In this document: one piece after another, positions 3,276 through 52,160 of the stretch | How the letters are laid out: every line of letters begins with the position of its first letter | Position numbering within the stretch: position 1 is the stretch's first letter | Origin: Thozetella sp. PMI_491 | Taxonomy: Eukaryota; Ascomycota; Sordariomycetes; Chaetosphaeriales; Chaetosphaeriaceae | Assembly: GCA_021432635.1 (NCBI GenBank) | Contig: MU270050.1 | Coordinates: forward strand, 611,413 to 675,412 | Direction of reading: 5' to 3' | Length of the DNA: 64,000 nucleotides | The notes under the pieces: model-generated | Database searches by the model: none | What the model saw: the letters and a program-made list of their open reading frames with translations, nothing else | What the model was told of the DNA's origin: nothing | Translations under genes and position numbers: made by a program

Positions 3276-4053
3276 ATGGAGACCACCAAGAGAGCAGAGA
3301 AACAAGCCTACACCTACGATCAGTGAGTGCCGCATATACTGTTATGTAATCTACCTCGAAAAAGCAACAATTCACTGACGATATTTCAGTCTGGACGACG
3401 CAAATGTGACTGAGGAGATTCCCCTTAACCATGACGACCATCTCCCGGTGATGCGCACCCGGTGGGGTAAGTCCCCTCGTCCAGCGACGCTCCTCTCTGT
3501 AGTCAAGGATGTCGGGTTGCTGGTTGTCTCGCTACTCGCCATCGCTGCCAGCTACCAGACGCTACAGCCCCCTAGGAATAGCGCTGGTCCTTGTGACTGT
3601 GGCGATTCGGTTGCGGAAGCCAAGCAGATGGGCTGCGAATATGACACCATGGCCGCGGCCTGGCTCCCTCAGCATTGTCTTGACAAAGGCTTGATTGCAG
3701 AATTCGACAAGGCAGGAGATGGGCCGGGCGGTCGATGGCAGTACTGGGCCGACGCGAACCATACCTACGAGTTTACCAAAGAAGAAGTTGGACAGCTGGC
3801 GGATACTCCCGGCAAGCTCTTCTACACGACCCCGAGATGGCACTTTATGCATTGCTTTTTCTACTGGAGAAAGCAGCAGCGCGCCAAGATAACAGGTGTC
3901 ACCATTGAGCGAAGATATGATAATGAGCGCCACGTGAAGCACTGCGGTCACATGTTTGACAACCCCGGCCATACTGCGTACTCGTATGTTGAGCTGAAGA
4001 GCAGCAGCCCAGAGCCTCCCGACTTTGTCAAGGATCTGATGGTGGAGGATTAG
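3276..4053 (+). CDS. UstYa-like (DUF3328-type) membrane-anchored oxidase, variant
   Basis: Two exons, 3276-3322 and 3390-4053, give 236 residues; the donor CA|GTGAGT and acceptor TTTCAG keep phase. The more obvious downstream start at 3406 is a GTG and would lose the N-terminus. A single membrane helix lies at about residues 49-69, followed by a lumenal region. Two HxxHC motifs are present: HFMHC at 167-171 and HVKHC at 197-201. UstYa-family proteins need paired HxxHC motifs and act in oxidative cyclisation of ribosomal peptides. The context around both motifs (WHFMHCFFYWRK, ERHVKHCGHMF) differs from the usual HQLHCL/HCLD pattern and the motifs are only 30 residues apart, so this is a divergent subgroup. 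Its nearest likely substrate is the repeat precursor at 725. Confidence 0.8.
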
Positions 4054-18140: not shown

Positions 18141-19256
18141 ATGCCCGACAGTGAATTTGGATCGGAGGATCCTCTTCTTGAATACGCATCTAGCAAGACT
18201 CAACCGCAATGGGCCGCGCGGAACCGGATCAGAGCTATGGTCTACATAGGGATAGGATGCATTCTGTACTCAGTTGTGCTTGTTCTAATTACTTCAAGAG
18301 TATTAGAGACGCAAAGGCGCTACGGAACCAGATGGATAGATTGTCAGTATACACTGCGACTGATATTTGTGCATTGCTAATAGCCGTGGCACTCTGAAGC
18401 GCCGGCCAATGATTTCATTGCCTACGAATCCCGAGTATTTTCTGTCGATGAGGCGATCAAGCAAGATGGATACTTCTCATCCACTCCATCGCCCAGAGTC
18501 GATCAAAACTGGCACGAGCTATTCCAAGGTGTGTGATGCTTGCGAGTTCAAAACGCGTATCAAGCTGCGGGGACTGATGCACGATCGAAATAGACCAGGA
18601 CATTGCCCTTTCCCCCGAAATCATGCGGAATCTCGGGCGGGAGGATCAAGGAATCAAGCTACCAGATGGAAATTATTTCGGGGCTATGATGGTCTTTCAT
18701 CATCTCCACTGCCTCGTAAGTCTTCCAACATATCCTGAAACATGATCAACAGAGGATTTCTAATATTGTACGACATGATAGAAAAATATATACCATACTC
18801 TTCACCCCGAGTATTATACATATGTGATCCAGAAGACCCCGGAAGGTCGTGCCACACAAGAGTTCCACACGAGTAAGACATAATGAATGCTTAAGATATT
18901 CTAAAGTGATTCTGATGATAGTACCATAGGGCATTGCCTCCACTTGCTTAAAGAGGCTGTCATGTGCCAGGCCGACCCAACATTTATCACAATGAAATGG
19001 AGCGAGCATGCACCGATCCCGATTGGGAACCTGTCCTCTCCTCATGAATGTGTAAATTGGGACAGGCTCCAAGAATGGGTTGTACCCCACTCGTTTGATC
19101 CATTGGAGGATGGAGTTCTTGTGCATCCTAAATATGGTATGCCAAAACACCCAGGCCCTTGTAACTTCGCGGAAGCAATGCTAACACCAAGAAGGCCCGG
19201 CATTTAAAGACCGTGATTGGGTAGACTTCAAAAAAAAAGACGTACCAAGTGGATAA
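18141..19256 (+). CDS. UstYa-family (DUF3328) oxidative cyclase
   Basis: Six exons (18141-18342, 18400-18528, 18594-18715, 18782-18872, 18930-19136, 19195-19256) keep phase throughout and give 270 residues. A single membrane helix lies at about residues 33-52. The UstYa core follows: ANDFIAYESRVFSVDEAIKQ, then HHLHC at 146-150, HPEYYTYVIQ, HTRHC at 180-184, and LLKEAVMCQADPTF. Both HxxHC motifs are present. At first sight the gene looks frameshifted after HHLHC, but using the acceptor ending at 18781 restores a normal family sequence. The family oxidises ribosomal peptides in ustiloxin-, asperipin- and cyclochlorotine-type pathways. The nearest candidate substrate is the divergent peptide gene at 17469-17744. 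The last exon is the least certain join. Confidence 0.82.
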
Positions 19257-33653: not shown

Positions 33654-35210
33654 TTACTTCGCTGAAACCTCGGGCTTTTTACCGTAGACGACATAGCTGT
33701 TCCAAGTTAGCAGTACAATACATGTTAAACCCGAGAATGTCTTACATGGGAAGGTAGGCGTGGATCGTGGGGTCGCGGAGACCTTTCTTCACATCAGCAC
33801 AGAATGCACCGGTCGCCTCTGGAGTCCAGCTCAGGACTCTCGTGGCCAGTGCCATCGTTAGACCCTCTAGCCCTGTGTCTAAGTTGACGCACATCCACTT
33901 TCCGAGCTCTTTGTAGTATTGGTCGCGCGGCCATGTCCCGATGGGCCACTTGTACCGCTTCTCGACAATGTCGACAAATCCTGCCTTCTCCATGAGACTC
34001 TTGTATTCTGCAGCCACGGTGATCGACCGGCCGATCTTGGCGCTAGCCTCTATAAAGAGGTGCCCGAGCTTATCTAGACCCGAACCTTCCTTTAGAGTGC
34101 CGTCATCACTCTGATAGGGCATGTGGAGATCCTGAAGCTCCAGGTACCCGCCGGGCTCAAGGGCGCTGCACAGGACCAGCTGATTAGCAATGCGAGCACA
34201 AACCGCGCTGCCTAGGAGAAAAGGGGTAAGTATTACGCAAAAGCTTTGTTGATAAAGGCTTGATAGTCCGTAAGGCTCCCGGCGATGACTCGTGCAAAGA
34301 TCAAATCGAACGGCTTAATCCATGCCCAGTCCTTCTCAAGATCGTCCACCTCGAACGAACAGTTGGGGGGCACACTATCACAACAGAGCGGTCAGATCAT
34401 CACTCAGACCAGAGGATAGGGTACCACACAAAGGGTGCCACTTGCAGTGACGGTTGAATAGGGCTCAAGTCGATCCCAATAACCTGCCATTACTTAGCAA
34501 GAGTCAATAAGCTGAAAGAAATGGAATAAGGTCCCATACCTCCGACTCGGGATGAGCATCCGCTACAACAAGCCGTGTTAGTCACGTCATAGCCTCTCAG
34601 TTAGTGTTACAAAGCATAGACTCGCCGTATTCGATCGCCCATATACCAGTGCCAGTGCCAGCATCTAACACCCTTCTAGCACCATTTTCTGTCTTGGGAC
34701 AGAGTCCAAGAGCGCCTCTAAATGTGAGGAGCCAGATATTATGCTGAAGATCTAGGGCACCGATGTTAAAGACGTGTCTGCAGATGGGAGGCGGGTTAAC
34801 ACGTACCAAGACGCTCATTTTCTGCGTCATCGTTGGGGTAGGCATATTCTCATTGTGGCGTAAGCATAATATCTTCATTATACGCCTTCAGGCATAGCGG
34901 AGAGGCGAGCCATACTTCCAGAGCTGACTGAGTGATAGGTCCTCCCGTTTTCCATCTGATACTGCAGCACGCTAGACCGCAGCGAGGAGAGCGAGCTCGT
35001 ACTCTGTTTACCAATCATCGTATTGGATTACCTGCTCCAGAAATATACACTTTATCATCCGTACCATTTCTACGGCGGATCCATCGTCCACTTGGCTTCC
35101 TGGCTCGGGGTCCGGCTCTGCGATCTTAGGTTGGTCAATGTTAATGCATGTGCTAGGTCTCGCGACTGTTGAACATAACTTACAATATTTTCGTTGTCAC
35201 GACTTGCCAT
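33654..35210 (-). CDS. LaeA-like SAM-dependent methyltransferase
   Basis: At least nine small exons, starting 35210-35184 and ending with a stop at 33656-33654. The acidic, serine-rich N-terminus (AEPDPEPGSQVDDGS, then SLSSLRSSVLQYQMENGRTYH) leads into KYAYPNDDAENERLDLQHN, the SAM motif VLDAGTGTGIWAIEYG, then IGIDLSPIQPS, FDLIFARVIAGSLTDY, LEPGGYLELQD and the terminal YVVYGKKPE. This order is typical of LaeA/LAE1-type proteins, which control secondary metabolism, and of cluster-borne tailoring methyltransferases of the same fold. One intron (34445-34375) has a GC donor, CT|GCAAGT. An apparent TGA between the N-terminus and the catalytic exons lies inside an intron (GTATGG...CAATGAG). I favour a cluster or accessory paralogue, not the global regulator itself. 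Confidence 0.82.
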
Positions 35211-42430: not shown

Positions 42431-42719
42431 TTAGATGCGCTTGCCCGTCTGGTATCCCTTGTCGTTGTCAGCGGCGTTGCTCCCACGCTTTCCGGTCTGG
42501 TAACCCTTATCCTCATCAGCAGCAATGTTCCCGCGCTTTCCGGTCTGGTAGCCTTTGTCGTTGTCGGCGGCATTGCTCCCACGCTTTCCGGTCTGGTAGC
42601 CTTTGTCGTTGTCCGCAGCGTTGTTGCCACGTTTGCCAGTCTGGTAGCCTTTGTCGCCGTCAGCGGCATTACTTCCGCGCTTTCCAGTCTGATATCCTTT
42701 GTCGTTGTCGGCGGCGTTA
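42431..42719 (-). repeat. Six in-frame 48-bp tandem repeats
   Basis: Each unit encodes one 16-residue KR-ended segment of the precursor. Units differ mainly at synonymous sites and in the first half. Copy number could vary between isolates. Confidence 0.85.
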
Positions 42720-42888
42720 TTACCGCGACCTACTACATCCCTAGCTTGGACAGCGGTGTCTTCTGTTTCGCCTAGTTTTAGTTTCTTTGGAAATACCGGG
42801 AGAGGACTAAGTATGGAATCTACTTACGAAGCAGCGGAGCAGCCAGGCTCAGGGCCGGAAGAGCGAGGAGCAGATAAGAGGCTCGCAT
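42431..42888 (-). CDS. Multi-core secreted precursor peptide (dikaritin-type RiPP candidate)
   Basis: Exons 42888-42828 and 42771-42431 join in phase across GTAAGT...ACTAG to give 133 residues. Exon one is a signal peptide (MRASYLLLALPALSLAAP). After a short leader come six direct repeats of 16 residues of the form GxxAADxDKGYQTGKR, then Ile and stop. Each ends in KR for Kex2-type cleavage. DKGYQTGKR is identical in all six although codons differ, whereas the first half varies (GNN, GSN, GN-I; D-N, D-G, D-E). The single Tyr in each repeat is the likely cyclisation site. Two UstYa genes (43924-44891 and 45610-46510) lie immediately upstream, as in known dikaritin clusters. The gene is hidden in simple translations because its start is in a separate exon and antisense frames are longer. 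Confidence 0.88.
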
Positions 42889-43923
42889 TTTGGAACTTTG
42901 ACGCGAGATATTGTAGGACACGGGGGGTTTTGAGAAAGTGGTAGGCGTTAGTGTTCTCTAGAATTGCAGAACTCTACCGTTATGCGAACATGGTGCTTAT
43001 TATATGCAAAGATTGCTACGTTACTAATGCTATTTGTTCATCCGCTCTCTACACCCAGCTGTCCCGGAACCAGAGGGGCGAAACATCATCCATCCTCCCG
43101 TCACATAATTCGCTTGCATGGCAGCACATCCCGTCAGTGTGCCCCACAAACAACCCATAACAAGCAGAGTAAAAAGTGGAAGTGCGACTGCAACCCTCCC
43201 AAAGCAGCGTTGAGCTACAATAGCGCCAACGTCATCACATGAACCAGAGCAGCCAACGCCAAGCACACCTCCGCGACTGCAGCCTAAATTGAAAAAAAAA
43301 AAAAAAATTTGACCAACACGAAGTTGCAAAGAACTTGAATATGCTGGGGCCATGCGCTGTTATGGCTAAGCATTCGCTGACCTTCCTAAATAAGATATAT
43401 TGGGCTCTCATCTTCGTGGTTGGTCTTTTATGGCTGTCGCAACTGGATGCCTTGCTGCGTAGGATCTTCGTTTAGACGAGTTTACATCGCGTGAGCTAGG
43501 ATGTGCGTTGGTTACAACGCGCTAGTATACGTAGAGACTCTTATTGGGGGCGAGCGTCGCCAACATGCAGAAGAGCGGCATCGGCGCCAAGCAACGCCCC
43601 ATAGTGGTAGCTTGGTTTGGAAAAGGGTACTTGTTGACATGAAGAAATAATACCCATTAAACCATGAACGTGAAATTGAAGCATAGTGACTGAGTGAAGC
43701 GGGTGTCCCCTGTAGCCAGCATGCTTATTGCACATGGATCGGCTTAACACAACTCCAGGGGTAAGAAAGCTAGGGCATCTAAGGTACTATATCTCCTCTT
43801 TACTAGGTTTACATGCTTGGAGTCGATTATCTTAGGTCTGCTACATTCCTTTGACTACTAAATATCATTGCCACCTCCGCTATAATCGAACGGACCGGCT
43901 AGCATATAAAGTCAGTGCCCTTT
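42889..43923. other. Intergenic, with promoter of the precursor gene
   Basis: A TATA-like TATAATAAG (minus strand, near 42997-43005) lies about 110 bases upstream of the precursor ATG. A14 run near 43292-43306. No further gene supported. Confidence 0.4.
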
Positions 43924-44891
43924 TTAGAAGACTAGAATTACTGTGATTTGTGACTTACGCATGTCTGGTTCATAATTAGGATGTTGTAGCAGGCTCTTGT
44001 TGAAGTAGTCAAAATTGTGAGCCCAAGCCCAGTCCTCGATAGCCTGCCAGTTAGCGCACTGGTGTACGCTCTTGAAATTAGGCCAGGGCCTGGGGAAATT
44101 GGGAATCCAGTCGTAGGTCATTAGTGTCAGGTCTGCATTACACATGATGTACTGTCGAAGTGATTCGAGGCAGTGGTCAATGTGTTGTCCACGATTTGCT
44201 TCTTTTTTGTTGGCCTGGTAAAGATCTGGATGTAGGTATGCCCGAACCTGCCTCTGTAGCGATGTGCGGTCAATTAGCTATGGGAAGGAGAGATGAAGAC
44301 AAAGTGTTGGCTTGCCAGGCAATGCAACTGATGGTAGACATCAAGGCCTACAAAGTAACCGGATCTGTCACTGAGCTCGACGGAAGTCTTGTTGATCTTT
44401 TCCAGTATGTCCTTTCCAACGCGAACGGCATCTGGTGACAATAATCGGTCCCATGCTTCTTCAAACTCCGGCCTGGGCGGCCCCTTGAACGGGTTGGAAG
44501 TCCCTAGATCGTTGTTTAACATCTGAGGTTGCCACTCTAGGGCTTCCCATGCCGGACCTAAAACGGTATCAGCGTAGGCTTAGTGTAGAGTTCCATGCAT
44601 CAGCTCACTATATGCCAGGGAAGCCTGAGGATTTGGTCGCCAGTTAGGCTGCCCTATTGCCGATTTCTTGGACATGAAAAAGAAGAAGATAAACGTATAA
44701 AGGGCAAAAAATAGGATGTGAATCATGTAAGGGAGTGATTTTCCCCTCATAGAAGGGGAAAATATGGAACCTGGAGGAGCGTTGAGATCGTCATCTGTCC
44801 AGGACAGGGAACTCAACCTAGATTTCTCTTGTTCGACTCTGAATAAAGGATCTGTATCCGCGCAGCGGTCTTCGTCAATAGACGGCGACAT
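43924..44891 (-). CDS. UstYa-family (DUF3328) oxidative cyclase
   Basis: Exons 44891-44609, 44557-44316, 44247-43959 and a tiny last exon 43931-43924 keep phase and give 273 residues. A membrane helix lies at about residues 53-73. Core features are AYSPAWEALEWQPQ, HQLHC at 170-174, VRAYLHPDLYQ, HIDHC at 197-201 and SLRQYIMCNADLTLM. The second intron has a GC donor (CTG|GCAAGC) and ends after GAGGCAG. Both HxxHC motifs are canonical, so it should be active in oxidising a ribosomal peptide. It faces away from the other UstYa gene across a 0.7 kb shared promoter and points toward the repeat precursor at 42431. The last 8-base exon is the least certain part; without it the frame ends at the same place. 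Confidence 0.88.
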
Positions 44892-45609
44892 GGTATCCTG
44901 ACTAGACAATAAATTGGGCGCGGATGAAAGGTATGGAAAAATGGAATGACGAATGTGCGGAGGGGGTAGGAAGAGAGGAGGCCGACCATAGAGCCAAGAG
45001 AGGAGGCTGCTGTGGTGGAAGGAGCCTTCTTGGCATTATGGTCGATGATGCGCGGTGGGCTCTTAGCAGAGTGACGAAGGTGGGCGAGAACAAAGTACAA
45101 GACCCGTTGCTGACATGCTTGACTAACTGATCTACACTTACGTATGACTGTTGAAATGAAGAGGGTCTGTTGTCAGAAGCAGTCGTCGTCGGACCGTAGC
45201 ATGCATAGCGGCATGCATGCTACAAGCGAGGCCAATCAAACCACATAATCCAAGTCCGTTGGCTGGGCCATTCCGTATTGTACAAATGTGCCCAACATGC
45301 ATAAAGCAACCATCCTTCCAATGGTGTGGCTAACTACATGCCAAGGTAGCCCCCAATTGCGGCGAGGCGATCCAAGCAGGCACCTAAGCCGGGTCTAGAA
45401 TGCGATTGACGCGGGGTCTAGAATTTACGAGCTACGACTGAGGGCAGAATGGGATGTTTGTCAAGAAATGCCCAAGCATCAACCCCGCTCGTCATCTCTT
45501 GGCCGTTTACCTGGGTTTCTGTTGCGGAAGACGAGCCAGGACCATTTCCTTCCCTGCTGTGCAAATTTTTTTTTATTTTTTTTTTTGGCTCAGCTCAAGT
45601 GCATACACC
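44892..45609. promoter_or_regulatory. Shared divergent promoter of two UstYa genes
   Basis: About 720 bases between two oppositely transcribed UstYa genes, which should allow joint control. A GCATGC palindrome is repeated near 45199-45222 (GCATGC ... GCATGCATGC). A T-rich run sits just before the right-hand start. Confidence 0.45.
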
Positions 45610-46510
45610 ATGAGCGCTTCAAAGCGAAGTGACGGCTATGTGCCAGTGAATACCGAGCCAGCATCCCGAGTTTCTTCTAGTTCTATATCGAGTGAGAAAC
45701 CCTCATCCGACAAGCAGATTATTGGAATTGGGAAAATGGTATCCTTGTGCCGGATCTTGTTGATGTGTTCGGCATGTGCCCTCGTGTCAGCTATCGTTGC
45801 GACATTTGCTACAATACATATTATCAGGACGTATTATAGTGACTACAGCGCGCCTCTCATGAGGACTCCAGTGCCGAGGTGTACGAGAAAGTCCTTCTAC
45901 AACCCCGTGGCCAGATATTGACAGCGCATTGTGCAGTGCCGCAAGAGATTCGAGTCTTCGAGTTGGACCCCATGTTCAGCTCGCCCCCGTCCCCAGAAAC
46001 GGATGAAGCTTGGGATGCACTGCTCCCGGTTGGACGTGGTTTTGTCTACTTCCAGGACAGTGATAGCTACGGGCTCCAGCCAGGCATCGACAAAGAAAAC
46101 GGAGAAATCTACAGCGTCGCGATGTTTCACCAGCTACACTGTCTAGGTTTACTACGGTATAACTATTGGGCACTGCTAGAGGGTATTTTGGCCGGCAATA
46201 CAAGCTTAAATGCAGAAGAAGCCCAGCGCCAGCTTAAAGAGCACCATTCCGGTCATTGTTTCGATTACTTGCGGCAAAGTATTGAATGCTCGGCGGACAT
46301 GACTCTAGAATGGCCACGCACCGACTCTGACGGCACACGAACAGTTGTGAATGGGAAGGATGTGCCCCACGTCTGCACAAGCAAGGTGAGAGTGCTGAAG
46401 TATGAGAATGGAATTTGAAGCTGACATTCTTGTTCTTTTAGTCTGCAGTTTATGAATACATGGTGAGGAATCATTACAATGGTTCATACGACAGTGACAT
46501 TGCCGCTTGA
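45610..46510 (+). CDS. UstYa-family (DUF3328) oxidative cyclase
   Basis: Exons 45610-45880, 45937-46385 and 46442-46510 keep phase and give 262 residues. The cytosolic N-terminus is serine-rich, followed by a membrane helix at about residues 44-72. The lumenal part has RVFELDPMFSSPPSPETDEAW, HQLHC at 155-159, HSGHC at 194-198, FDYLRQSIECSADMTLEW and a terminal VYEYMVRNHY. These are textbook UstYa features. The start at ATG 45610 follows a poly-T stretch. With the divergent paralogue and the repeat precursor it forms a three-gene unit resembling minimal dikaritin clusters, where paired UstYa proteins act on one precursor. Confidence 0.9.
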
Positions 46511-46817: not shown

Positions 46818-47300
46818 TCATGCCATTCCCGCGTATTCGATCGACCCCTCAACACCTGGGAACCAATCGACCCTGCGTTTGACATAAAACTCGCTACTCG
46901 GTGCCGTATCTCGTTTATCATCCATTATACCCATCGGAATAATGATGAATGGCATGATATCGGGGTTAGTTATGTTGGTAATGCATACATTGGACCCGCA
47001 TATGCTACAAAACGACCTCTGCACTATTCCTCCGTTGTCGCAAGACGAATCCTTGTATCCACGAATGGCGTTGTCCTTATCCATAATTTCAATTTGCTGC
47101 TCTTAATTAGTAATGAAACTTTGTGTGGATAGTAGTGATTTCCATGCCTCTTTGAGCAAGAAAAAGTTTGACTCAAAGATCGCGCCGCTAGACTTCTGGC
47201 ATGACGTGCAGTGGCAAAGCACTTTGCGTATTGGTTCGCCTTTCATGTGGACCTTAACGAGGCCACAGAGACAGGATCCAGTCCTCTCGACCACGCTCAT
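46818..47300 (-). CDS. GFA-domain (DUF636) zinc protein
   Basis: Exons 47300-47148 and 47096-46818 join in phase to give 143 residues, normal for the family. Zinc ligands are CLCG near the start, CHCTSC (CxCxxC) and CSICGS. This is the fold of the glutathione-dependent formaldehyde-activating family, in which most fungal members have unknown substrates. The only intron that keeps the domain whole has a GC donor (GAG|GCATGG) and acceptor GAGCAG; the donor is weak, so the exact join is uncertain. It converges on the UstYa gene (3' ends 307 bases apart) and is divergent from the regulator at 47700. Confidence 0.75.
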
Positions 47301-47699
47301 TTTGCCCTTCCGCAACTTCGAGGATGCAATTCTTAAGGTGTCCAAACGAGAGGGGGTAGGACGTAATGACTGAGCTCGAAGCCGAGACGCTCTGGCATCG
47401 AGAGTGAGTTCAAGATTAACACAGGAATTTTTCGCAGAATCAGAAGGTTTATTCTACGGCGAAGGGGAAGGTAGAATCTGGCGTGGTGGACCGTTTTATG
47501 TATCAAGTGCTAGCATATAGAGCGGACGCAGGAGCGGATAATATCCCGCTCGCACTAGCGCGCGTCACCAAATGCCCGCTCGGCTGCAGGATCCACATAA
47601 CCTTATGCGGGGCTAAGACTGCTGCCTCTTCCTTTCACAACAAAGTCTCCTTCCTTGCAAGTGCTCCGACGAGAGCAGGAGTCAGAGCGATCATCTTAC

Positions 47700-49485
47700 A
47701 TGGAATCACCACAGAGGGCGCCTCGCGCCTGTCGAGCGTGCAAGTACGGAACTCTCCCTATCAAAGTTTGACCAGGTGCTGAGACAGACAAGGCGCTTGA
47801 AGCGCAAGTGTTCTCGCGACCTACCTCTATGTTCCCTGGTGTGCACTACCCTGGCTGTCTCAGGCGGGATTGAAGGGCCTGACTTGATGATTAGTGTATC
47901 CGCCTAAACAAATCGTGCCAGTACTCTTTAGGAAGCCAGAGCCAGGAAGAGCTTTTGGAGCGGATCAGAGAGCTAGAGGAGCGACTTGAATCCGGATCGC
48001 CGGACAAGGCTGAAGAGACTTCAAACCATTCTTCATCAACTCACACCTTCCCGCCATCCTTTTTCTTGGATACAGATCGTCTAGCCCCACTTCTGCGGAA
48101 GTCTCTAGAATCAAAGGAAGAGACGCCACCGAAGCTATTGGGCCAGTTAGGATCCAATCTTTTGGCCATTTTGGACAGATATCTCAGGAATACGCACCCA
48201 TGGTTCCCTATACTTAGCCCGAAGAAACTGCATGAGCATGCTACGGAGTTCAAGGAGGACCTCAAACCAAGTGTTGCATTCCTATTCCTGTCACTTAAGC
48301 TTGTTTCGAGCTGTCGAAGTGAGCAGACTAAGGACGAAGCTAGCGAATTGTACTTCCTAGCGAGAGACATCCATAACAACCTGGAAGGTGCATCGGGAAT
48401 ATCCTTATGCTTTCTCCAGGGCGCTATTTTTATTGCTCTGTACGAGCTCGGCCAAGGAATTTTCCCAGCCGCTTATATGACGATTGGTAAAGTAGCAAGG
48501 CTGGCATCCCTGATTGGGCTGTCAGGCACAGCAAGTCCAACAAAATTATTCAAGGAGGCAAATACTTGGACGGAGAGAGAGGAGGAACGCCGAGCTTGGT
48601 GGGCTGTCTTTATTCTAGAGAGGTAAGCAACCATACTCCACAGACATGTCCCGCTTGTCTCGCTGATATTTATATTCGAAAGAATAATCAATGTTGCCCC
48701 AAGCGGTCTTCACATGGCAACGCCGGATCCATCGTCAGCCACGCTCTTGCCCATATCGGACTCCCGTTGGAATCGAGGAGAGATCGGTCCTTCCGAAGCG
48801 CTCTTCACACACGGATTCTCTTCCGCTGCCAACGTTGGACCCTTTGCGCGTCTCTGCCAAGCATCTCACGTCCTCTCTATGGTCCAACGCCATCGTGAGA
48901 CTAGGCACACAAGCACCGATAAGACCGCGGTCCTTAACGAAGCCCTGCAGCTTCACTCCACGCTTGTCGCCTTAGACAATCATCTTGCCCAGCAGCTAGA
49001 TACTGCCGCCTCCTCAGATAGCTGGAGTTGTGCAACTGATCTCGCTATATGTTGCTCCGCGCGTATGATGCTATATGACATGTATGGGTGCAACAGTCTC
49101 GACGCCGCGGTGCTCTCTACCGAGCGCGTAGCTCTGGAGACGGAGATGCAGTCGGCGAGTCTTGAAGGTCTCATACAGTTGGTAAGCCAGAGAGCGGTGA
49201 CACTGGCCGCGGCCGTGTGTTCGCTGTATGGAGACGCGGTCGGCGCAGTCTCTCCATTGATCATAGAGTGCCTATATACGGCGGCGTGCGAGTGCAAATG
49301 GTTCGTTCAGGAGAGGATGGTTCCGGACATGACTGGAACTCTGCAGACCCTGAAAAATGCCTTGGCCATTGTTGATGGCAGATGGGGGATTTCCGGTAGG
49401 TGCCAAGAGCCAAGAATGCTTCGGTGAGAGACAGCTAACTGGATCAGGACAATATATGAAATTGCTCGAATTTGCAGAGTATTAA
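47700..49485 (+). CDS. Zn2Cys6 transcription factor with MHR domain
   Basis: Exons 47700-47743, 47793-47838, 47895-48622, 48683-49395 and 49448-49485 keep phase and give 522 residues. The zinc cluster is divided over three exons: CRACK, RLKRKCSRDLPLCSL and CIRLNKSC, giving CX2CX6CX6CX2CX6C. A coiled coil (QEELLERIRELEERL) and the middle homology region (LQGAIFIALYELGQGIFPAA) follow, then GQYMKLLEFAEY at the end. It is a clear relative of the regulator at 29549-31494. Starting at a later Met, as a simple frame would suggest, loses the DNA-binding domain. It converges with the DHA2 pump so closely that the two stop codons overlap. Confidence 0.88.
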
Positions 49486-51334
49486 ACTTGTTTCTTGCGT
49501 GTAATCCGGCCCCTACTCAAAAAGACCGCTGTTAGTGCGACTAAGCACGCTATGGCGGTTACTAGGTAAAAGACGTTGTCAATGGCCTCAGTGTATGAGG
49601 CAATCACTGCTGGTAACTCGGCGTCGGTAACAACGTTCCGGAAATGAGTTGCCCCGAGCTCCAGAATTGTGTTAGGATTACGATTGGGCACTCTGATTGC
49701 CAGTTCCGATTTCAGCGTTTCGTCAAAGATGGTGTTACCAACTGTTAGGAAAATCGCTCCGCCCAACGACTGGAGATACATGATGAGGGACAGTGCCATG
49801 GAAATTTGTGCAGGTTTGATGGAAGTCTGAATACAGACAACAGGCTGAAGGGATTGTTAGTTTAGACTGTCTTATCATATCTCCTACGTGGACTTGCCAT
49901 CTGTATGCCGATGCCACGACCCGCGCCAACAAGTATTTGGTACCCGATCCATTGGCCCGCAGTGCTAGTAGGTGACAAGGTCGAGAGCAGGCCAAAGCCT
50001 ACAGAAAGAACGATGCCAGAGAGAAGAATGTATAGAGCAATGTGGCCGGTTTTCTGGACTAGAATCTGTCAATCATTCCACGACCGCTCTGAATAAGTAG
50101 AGGGGTATGAGACATACCCAAAAATCCGGTACTTAGCACCATCAAAAGCTGGCTGAGAATTGTGGGTAGATAGTAAACGCCAGACATGAAAGGGGTGGTT
50201 CCGTTGGCTGCCTGGAAGTAAATTGGGAGAAAATAAGCCTGGACAGTCACGGTTGTCAATATCCAGAATGAACTGAGACCGCTGGCCCAAACTAATCGCC
50301 TCTTTGCCATGGAGAAAGGGAGCAAGGCGTCGTCGCCTTGGCGCCAGTTCCATATCACCCAGGCCACGAATGCTACTCCGGTGCCGCAGAAGAGCCCGAT
50401 CACAACGCTCGAGTCCCAAGAATATTCCCTGGATCCATACTGAAGTCCAAGGAGTAACTGGATGGCGAACAGCGCCGACAACAGGAAGCCGATGAAGTCA
50501 AGCTCTCGGTGAAGTCGCGACAGCACGGACCAAACCGCGGGCTTCTCAACTTGGTCCGGAATGCGGAGGAAAGCCATGGCAATGAGGCCAAGACCGCCAA
50601 CGGGAAGGTTGATGTAGAAACACCAGCGCCACGTCGAATATTCCGTGAAGGCTCCACCAATCAGCGGCCCAACCGCGATTCCGAACTGTGAGATACCAAG
50701 CACAATCGATGTGATAGATGCCCGCTGAGCCGGTCGGGTGATGCAACTGACGATGGTGAAGGCTCCATTCAGGAGACCAGCCGATCCCAGGCCAGCGACC
50801 GCGCGGCCAATTATAAGCATTCGCGATGAGGAAGCGCTAGCGCAGAGCAGAGACCCGAGTTCGAAAATGAAGATGAAAGTCAAGAAGGTCCATTTCGTGC
50901 TGAACCTGTGATAGATCTTCCCAGTGAGGAGCTGAGGGGCAGCCGCGGCAAACTGGTATGCTGACCCATACCAGCCCACGTCTTGAAGAGAGTGAAACTC
51001 GTCAGTTATTCGAGGGGTCTGAGAAAAATTAGCATCTATCTGCTGTGCTATGCCTGTGGCAGTTACGGCTGGAACTAACAGCAGTCCCAATGATGGAAAT
51101 GTCGAGCATGAGTAAAAAAGTAGCCAAGGTGATGGAGATGGTGATGAGAACTCTAGATATCGTCGAAGGATACTCATTTTGCTGGATCTGGTCGTTCTTT
51201 TCGCTTGGCATCTCGGCGGGAATATCTGGCTGGATAGGGGCACTGCTATCGTCAGGTACAGGCGACTGGGAAGACTTTTCCAACATTTCCAAGCCTGCAA
51301 CGGGGCTTCTGGGTTCCATGGCCGCTTCTGCCAT
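49482..51334 (-). CDS. MFS efflux transporter, DHA2 family (14 helices)
   Basis: Exons 51334-51080, 51018-50118, 50058-49898 and 49844-49482 keep phase and give 559 residues. A long charged N-terminus precedes the first helix (LITISITLATFLLMLDISIIG). Family motifs are TPRITDEFHSLQDVGWYGSAY (helix 1-2 loop), GRAVAGLGSAGLLNGA, GPLIGGAFTEYSTWRWCFYIN (motif C region, GPxxGG) and GIGIQMPVVCIQ. The last intron has a perfect GC donor (ATG|GCAAGT); using a nearby GT donor breaks the frame. DHA2 pumps in fungi export toxins, drugs and cluster products. Location 3-4 kb from the UstYa/precursor unit makes it a candidate exporter. Confidence 0.92.
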
Positions 51335-52160
51335 GACTGTATCGTTTGTCCAGGGTGGCTAAAGGCTTAGATACACATGAGCGCCTTTTTTTTCTGCGAA
51401 ATCCAGCTCCGTAATGTGCGGCTGTGACTTCGAGCTAAAGGTAAGACACTATATCAAGTGCAAACGGCATTTTTGAAGCGAGAAGTTCAAATCTGCTTCC
51501 CAAATCGTCTTTTATTTCCCAGCTGCGAAGTGGACATGGATACAAGCGAGCCAAAGACTAAGCCCGTGTGCTCAAAGAGTTTCCCAACGGGGTTCGGGAG
51601 CGGAACCGTTCTACACCCATGTTTGTCAGCTAAAGGTCTTGCTGCATTTCTTTTACGCATCTGGTTCAATAACATTCTATCTATTGTAATCTTCGATAAA
51701 GTACTGATGGAGTACAGCTCGCTGGTCTGGATTTGGTAGATATCAATGCTGGGAAGTTCAATAAAGCTGATCCGTAACTGCTGCACCTCGTCCGCCGGTT
51801 AATCATAATGCAGAATTCTTCTGGCATAGTAATTAGCAGCACGTTTGCAATCCTACTATGACCAGTTCTCCGTTCTCATCTGGTTGGCCGCTAGCATCCG
51901 ATGGGCTTGAACAGAGAGTTGAAGTGGGGCGAGCGGAGTTCGGAATCCGTTGGGCCAACGGCATTCCGTTCCTTAAATAAAATCCCGCCCCAACCTTCGT
52001 CTTGCCAAGGCGTGGGCAGTCCCTATTGCAAGGTCCGGCGGATTGAACCATCGCGCACTGCAAACCGTGCATCTCCGTTCCGGCATTCCACCGGAGATCT
52101 TGTCTGCGCATTCTGCAGATTCCTTCGGATCTGAACCCAGCATTGCTCCATCCCTCAGGC
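51335..52160. other. Divergent intergenic region
   Basis: Between the transporter and the next regulator. No gene supported. Confidence 0.4.

Follow-up and report, generated by a model that had tools for sequence, protein, structure and literature searches.

Dikaritin-type Loci of Fungi

In the literature, fungal clusters are treated as dikaritin-type when a precursor that has a secretory leader and tandem repeats with kexin sites between them is accompanied by nearby genes of the DUF3328/UstYa family (PMC9632046, PMC10512285); a 2022 review counts five described dikaritins (PMC10512285). The cross-links in these ribosomally synthesized and post-translationally modified peptides (RiPPs) join Tyr to Ile in ustiloxins and phomopsins, Phe to Leu in victorin, and two Tyr in asperipin, and are thought to join Ile to Tyr in epichloecyclins (PMC9233826). 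As surveyed in PMC7329392 in 2020, 1758 of 7878 Kex2-processed repeat proteins (KEPs) from 1461 strains had a DUF3328 neighbour, the DUF3328 count was highest at the gene adjoining the KEP, and Tyr occurred in 65.6% of the repeats when the KEP had a DUF3328 companion and in 38.2% when it had none. Such neighbourhoods are numerous and mostly uncharacterised, and the locus described here adds an uncharacterised example with an unusual core. It lies in a 64,000-nucleotide stretch of the genome of the sordariomycete Thozetella sp. PMI_491, of the order Chaetosphaeriales (contig MU270050.1, positions 611,413 to 675,412; the contig is C36 below), which we call the window, and comprises a spliced precursor gene with six repeats and two oxidase genes, UstYa-A and UstYa-B (Table 1). 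We consider it very probable that these three genes form a minimal dikaritin-type (KEP/UstYa) RiPP locus.

The locus resembles the ustiloxin and phomopsin systems in its leader, its short Kex2-bounded units, and its two or more UstYa neighbours. The units span 13 residues in ustiloxin and 14 in phomopsin, compared with 14 between KR sites in Thozetella, and YQTG, the core read in all six repeats, shares Tyr in first and Gly in fourth place with ustiloxin cores (PMC7329392). The third core residue, however, is Thr instead of the Ile of the ustiloxin/phomopsin-type motif Tyr-X-Ile-X, which is that of KEP type G-10 (PMC7329392), and no tyrosinase match is found nearby, leaving the tyrosinase item of the five-gene dikaritin definition (Ding et al., as cited in PMC12048977) without a counterpart. 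Because both are lacking, we use "dikaritin" in the broad, UstYa-defined sense only, in which the peptide would, by analogy, be oxidised by UstYa proteins. The initial annotation had matched the arrangement to dikaritin-type pathways; the match holds for the leader, the KR repeats, and the UstYa neighbours, and fails for the Tyr-X-Ile-X core and the tyrosinase.

Other described systems share different subsets of these features. Asperipin-2a likewise pairs a KEP with UstYa and lacks the full ustiloxin enzyme set, but it is bicyclic via two internal tyrosines (PMC9233826) and has one UstYa gene (PMC7329392), whereas the Thozetella repeat contains a single Tyr and the locus has two UstYa genes. 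The epichloecyclin precursor GigA also combines kexin-site repeats, a UstYa-like gene, and an internal Tyr; its repeats of 27 residues and its four-gene cluster with its own kexin (PMC7317419) contrast with the 16-residue repeats of Thozetella, where the single kexin-type P_proprotein match in the genome lies on another contig, C4. The epichloecyclin link has been suggested to involve an N-terminal Ile (PMC9233826), and the invariant part of the Thozetella repeat has no Ile. Among orphan KEP/DUF3328 types, G-6 is similar in having Y with several D (PMC7329392); its consensus is given only as a figure. G-6 genera that overlap those with UstYa-A/B homologues include Aspergillus, Penicillium, Beauveria, Cordyceps, Ophiocordyceps, Hypoxylon, Rhynchosporium, and Rutstroemia; because such genera are often sequenced, the likeness is a lead only.

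Table 1. Features of the precursor locus and its surroundings (window positions), followed by KEP-like open reading frames (ORFs) at other UstYa loci (positions within each locus)
Feature	Position	Strand	Description
Precursor gene	42431..42888	-	exon 1 42888-42828, exon 2 42771-42431; predicted product 133 aa
Six 16-residue repeats	42437..42724	-	G[NS][NI]AAD[NGE]DKGYQTGKR; KR Kex2-type sites between units; limits from exon model
UstYa-A	43858..44891	-	286 aa; introns 44608-44558, 44315-44254 (GC-AG, 62 nt; model adjusted from homologues), 43958-43899; PF11807
UstYa-A/UstYa-B intergenic region	44892..45609	.	718 bp shared by divergent genes
UstYa-B	45610..46510	+	262 aa; introns 45881-45936 (set after homologue comparison), 46386-46441; PF11807
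GFA-domain ORF	46818..47102	-	just past UstYa-B; PF04828, 32.6 bits; candidate by position only
Fungal transcription factor gene	47617..49427	+	several ORFs; PF04082, 44.9 bits on 47895-48626; Zn2Cys6-like cysteines by eye
Major facilitator superfamily (MFS) transporter ORF	50059..51366	-	PF07690, 96.1 bits; 3.5 kb past UstYa-B
KEP-like ORF, L008	1-504	-	beside UstYa
KEP-like ORF, L015	50-433	-	beside UstYa
KEP-like ORF, L021	146-529	+	beside UstYa
KEP-like ORF, L028	2572-3069	+	beside UstYa

A Spliced Precursor with Six Constrained Repeats

KEPs are recognised by a secretory leader followed by at least three tandem repeats of at least eight residues between Kex2 sites (PMC7329392), and the Thozetella precursor has a leader and six KR-separated repeats of 16 residues. 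The initial annotation had proposed this spliced 133-residue protein, and its exon and junction coordinates proved right. Exon 1 encodes the hydrophobic leader MRASYLLLALPALSLAAPLL, of which residues 6-20 are, by hydropathy, the criterion used here, the most hydrophobic 15-residue window of the precursor (Kyte-Doolittle 2.24). The 56-nt intron (42827-42772) is of the GT-AG type (GTAAGT...AACTAG). Nine donor/acceptor combinations (15-150 nt) leave the DKGYQTGKR repeat in frame, and the 42828/42771 junction is the predicted one because its donor is GTAAGT. Without splicing, the ATG frame meets a stop shortly past the leader; gene prediction can therefore overlook the gene, as public annotation seems to have done.

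Amino acid variation is confined to positions 2, 3, and 7, in the N-terminal half of the repeat. The four 14-mer variants found among the six copies (GNNAADNDKGYQTG, GSNAADNDKGYQTG, GSNAADGDKGYQTG, and GNIAADEDKGYQTG) differ in this spacer only, and one product would therefore be expected from all copies if the spacer is trimmed. The calculated [M+H]+ values of the linear peptides are 1424.604, 1397.593, 1340.571, and 1438.645 for these 14-mers in the order given, 768.352 for DKGYQTG, and 468.209 for YQTG. Ile occurs in the spacer of one of the six copies, and DKGYQTG contains no Ile, Leu, Val, Phe, or Trp. When the 72.3-Mb genome was searched with a degenerate DNA pattern for DKGYQTGKR (up to two mismatches), these six copies were the sole matches; the DKGYQTG motif was not found in a full-text literature search, which did not cover supplements.

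The nine residues DKGYQTGKR (codons 8-16) are identical in all copies even though eight of the nine codons vary, which bears out the earlier claim of identity despite synonymous codon changes. All eight variable nucleotide columns in these codons fall at third positions, and all are synonymous, an outcome that eight chance changes produced in 0 of 200,000 simulations. Over the whole 16-codon unit, third positions account for 15 of 19 variable columns (p=6e-5). Mean nonsynonymous divergence (dN) in codons 8-16 is 0 at a mean synonymous divergence (dS) of ~1.5 (9 of 15 copy pairs computable), and the copies are therefore old, not freshly duplicated. DKGYQTGKR is a conserved coding sequence kept constant by purifying selection.

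A Divergent Pair of UstYa Genes

UstYa (DUF3328) proteins are defined by two HxxHC motifs (PMC12048977), and the Pfam cut-off of PF11807 is 25 bits. UstYa-A scores 190.9 bits in its final spliced model and UstYa-B 100.9 bits in its first, and each carries both motifs behind a hydrophobic segment (UstYa-A: segment at residues 56-74, HQLHC at 170, HIDHC at 199; UstYa-B: segment at 49-67, HQLHC at 155, HSGHC at 194). As the initial annotation held, the two lie upstream of the precursor on opposite strands: UstYa-A at ~1.0 kb, on the precursor strand, and UstYa-B at 2.7 kb, diverging from UstYa-A across a gap that we infer to be a candidate bidirectional promoter. These distances match the published DUF3328 enrichment at the gene next to a KEP. 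UstYa-A is represented in public annotation by the Thozetella sp. PMI_491 protein GQ53DRAFT_826711 (94% identity over 75% of the query), a 202-aa truncation without the first HxxHC motif; for UstYa-B, none of 82 protein matches carries the name Thozetella, and the best identity is 59%.

Homologues of UstYa-A and UstYa-B co-locate in 8 of the 13 other species named in both match lists, as judged by same-size contigs or neighbouring locus tags, a proxy rather than a map, and weak on the largest contigs. The eight are Purpureocillium lavendulum, Epichloe festucae, Ophiocordyceps camponoti-saundersi, Annulohypoxylon nitens, Beauveria bassiana, Cordyceps sp. RAO-2017, Nemania abortiva, and Delitschia confertaspora. 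The pair carries the locus tags CRV24_006142/006143 in B. bassiana and CDD83_2138/2139 in Cordyceps sp. RAO-2017, and lies within C2857_004661-004664 in E. festucae Fl1. In Epichloe festucae Fl1, the UstYa-A homologue C2857_004664 ends in seven tandem 15-residue repeats (residues ~273-378, mostly xxEPDRHQSYLKERS) placed beyond the end of most aligned homologues; from their position, they probably belong to a neighbouring downstream repeat gene that was fused by annotation. Like Thozetella, E. festucae would then have a repeat-coding stretch downstream of UstYa-A on the same strand.

UstYa Genes and KEP-like Repeats across the Genome

PF11807 gave 149 exon matches in the 72.3-Mb genome, which correspond to ~125 UstYa genes when matches less than 350 nt apart are merged. 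This is roughly 20 times the 2020 mean of 6.4 DUF3328 per strain that we computed from the annotated-protein counts in PMC7329392, with the proviso that the counting methods differ. Six UstYa genes occupy the 14 kb left of the window (C36:596800-610866), and nine lie in 85 kb when the window and this adjoining stretch are counted together. Around the best 30 UstYa matches, some of whose loci overlap, a KEP-like repeat ORF lies within ±1.5 kb in four cases (Table 1); their units end in YIKEGKR (12 copies), YGVDTFGAIKR, SPDILYNNPAGWGKR, and NVDVVLKAENWGTKR, and two of these ORFs, L021 and L028, show a leader. With the precursor locus and a second repeat gene in the window, the genome holds at least six KEP-like/UstYa neighbourhoods. 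KEP-like ORFs were found in 0 of 8 random 10-kb stretches and in 0 of 600 shuffled loci.

That second KEP (725-1360, + strand) consists of one open frame in which [AGT]CTDVVxEDGTI[AV]KR alternates with CPIPWTKNYGEYEKR, in six copies. It is the single match of its kind in the genome, and its nearest UstYa match is 1.3 kb away (C36:610189-610866). Two further observations concern UstYa-like sequences in the window. An ORF at 3379-4053 (+) carries HFMHC and HVKHC and has no Pfam match; its alignment to the profile of UstYa-A spans both motifs (hhalign E=2e-4, probability 44.5), and it is possibly a divergent UstYa. The third Pfam-level UstYa match of the window (18599-19081, +; 82 bits) has internal stops, probably introns, and lies 23 kb from the precursor locus; no KEP was detected beside it.

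Neighbouring Genes

Beyond UstYa-B lie the GFA-domain ORF, a transcription factor gene, and an MFS transporter ORF (Table 1). From position only, the transcription factor would be a candidate regulator and the MFS protein a candidate exporter. The five-gene dikaritin definition also names a methyltransferase and a transporter or peptidase; besides the MFS ORF, the window has a methyltransferase-looking ORF at 33742-34314, for which Pfam gives no match. Flavin monooxygenases and peptidases were sought only through Pfam scans of selected long ORFs.

Proposed Pathway and Its Alternatives

Expression, processing, and chemistry of the precursor product are modelled here on ustiloxin-type pathways (PMC9233826, PMC10512285). 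The precursor would enter the endoplasmic reticulum, Kex2 would cut after each KR, and a carboxypeptidase would trim the KR to leave 14-mers; the P_proprotein match on C4 accords with kexin processing. The membrane-bound UstYa-A/UstYa-B pair may then oxidise the Tyr-containing core of the released 14-mer, be it DKGYQTG or just YQTG, the likeliest change being a link or a hydroxylation around the Tyr, and the modified peptide would be secreted. Since DKGYQTG offers none of the residues Ile, Leu, Val, Phe, and Trp, any cross-link from its Tyr would have to use an unusual partner; the core could thus either be linked to such a partner, be hydroxylated or desaturated without a cross-link, or stay a linear peptide. 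We can also imagine, with considerable doubt, that UstYa-A/B is the conserved oxidase pair of a widespread, uncharacterised RiPP family and cross-links or oxidises Tyr-Gln-Thr-Gly via a partner unlike the aliphatic or aromatic residues of described dikaritins, e.g., Thr, Gln, or Lys.

Several results weigh against a dikaritin-type assignment. The core lacks the residues that take the cross-link in described dikaritins. No tyrosinase (PF00264) match lies within ~460 kb on the contig, where the nearest is at 193-194 kb and the precursor at 654 kb; the contig ends at 675 kb, 21 kb to the other side, and DNA past that end is unseen. Pfam scans of selected long ORFs, which do not amount to a full annotation, revealed no peptidase or methyltransferase. 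Among ~5.8 billion proteins (1750 word-sharing candidates), the spliced precursor has no homologue at E≤0.1, although the truncated UstYa-A of Thozetella is in that set. The constraint on the repeat is seen between copies only. UstYa-A and UstYa-B homologues are apart in 5 of the 13 species, namely Ophiocordyceps australis (different locus-tag prefixes), Emmonsiellopsis PD_33, Phlyctema vagabunda, and two Cadophora, and the E. festucae repeats, which end mostly in KER, not KR, and are unlike DKGYQTG, are a lead only. Finally, a comparison of KEP frequency near and far from UstYa genes was weak, giving p=0.11 against an initial 40 kb of control sequence and 0.03 once a further 40 kb had been added.

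The absence of an acceptor residue also fits a precursor whose secreted products stay linear and unmodified, as signal, repellent-like, or effector-like peptides, the UstYa pair having some other substrate. In the 2020 catalogue, 6120 of 7878 KEPs (about 78%) lack a DUF3328 neighbour (PMC7329392), and nine UstYa genes in 85 kb raise the odds of coincidental adjacency. Yet the core contains Tyr, and the gene order places a divergent UstYa pair right beside the precursor. A scan of C36:590001-675412 found just one other KEP, ~42 kb from the pair, although spliced or few-repeat genes could escape it, and four KEPs in the 106 kb around UstYa genes would be improbable by a Poisson bound (p=0.00025), which is stronger than the near/far comparison, even if 200 were scattered at random over the genome. 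On balance, we think linear peptides improbable.

Leader, repeats, and KR sites are also the layout of mating-pheromone precursors. Such an identity is scarcely credible here: no Pfam family matches the precursor at E≤0.01, the repeat has no Trp or Cys, and pheromone-type KEPs, with three exceptions, lacked DUF3328 genes in the 2020 survey (PMC7329392). A former RiPP cluster, now silent or decaying, would explain why public annotation holds only a truncated UstYa-A, why UstYa-A needs a GC-AG intron, and why no accessory tailoring enzyme was recognised. All three reading frames are nevertheless intact in the models, both HxxHC motifs are present in UstYa-A and in UstYa-B, and the core shows no amino acid change at a dS of ~1.5, so that we regard decay as quite unlikely. 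A small dikaritin-type locus remains our preferred reading.

Implications

With one precursor and two oxidases, the locus is small and hence tractable for studying how a UstYa pair acts on a core that lacks the usual acceptor. If the pair does link Tyr to Thr, Gln, or Lys, the linkage would be a new bond type for the UstYa family. The A/B homologue pairs in eight other fungi offer a route to partner precursors that annotation misses, and the genome of Thozetella sp. PMI_491, with its abundance of UstYa genes, appears to be a rich source.

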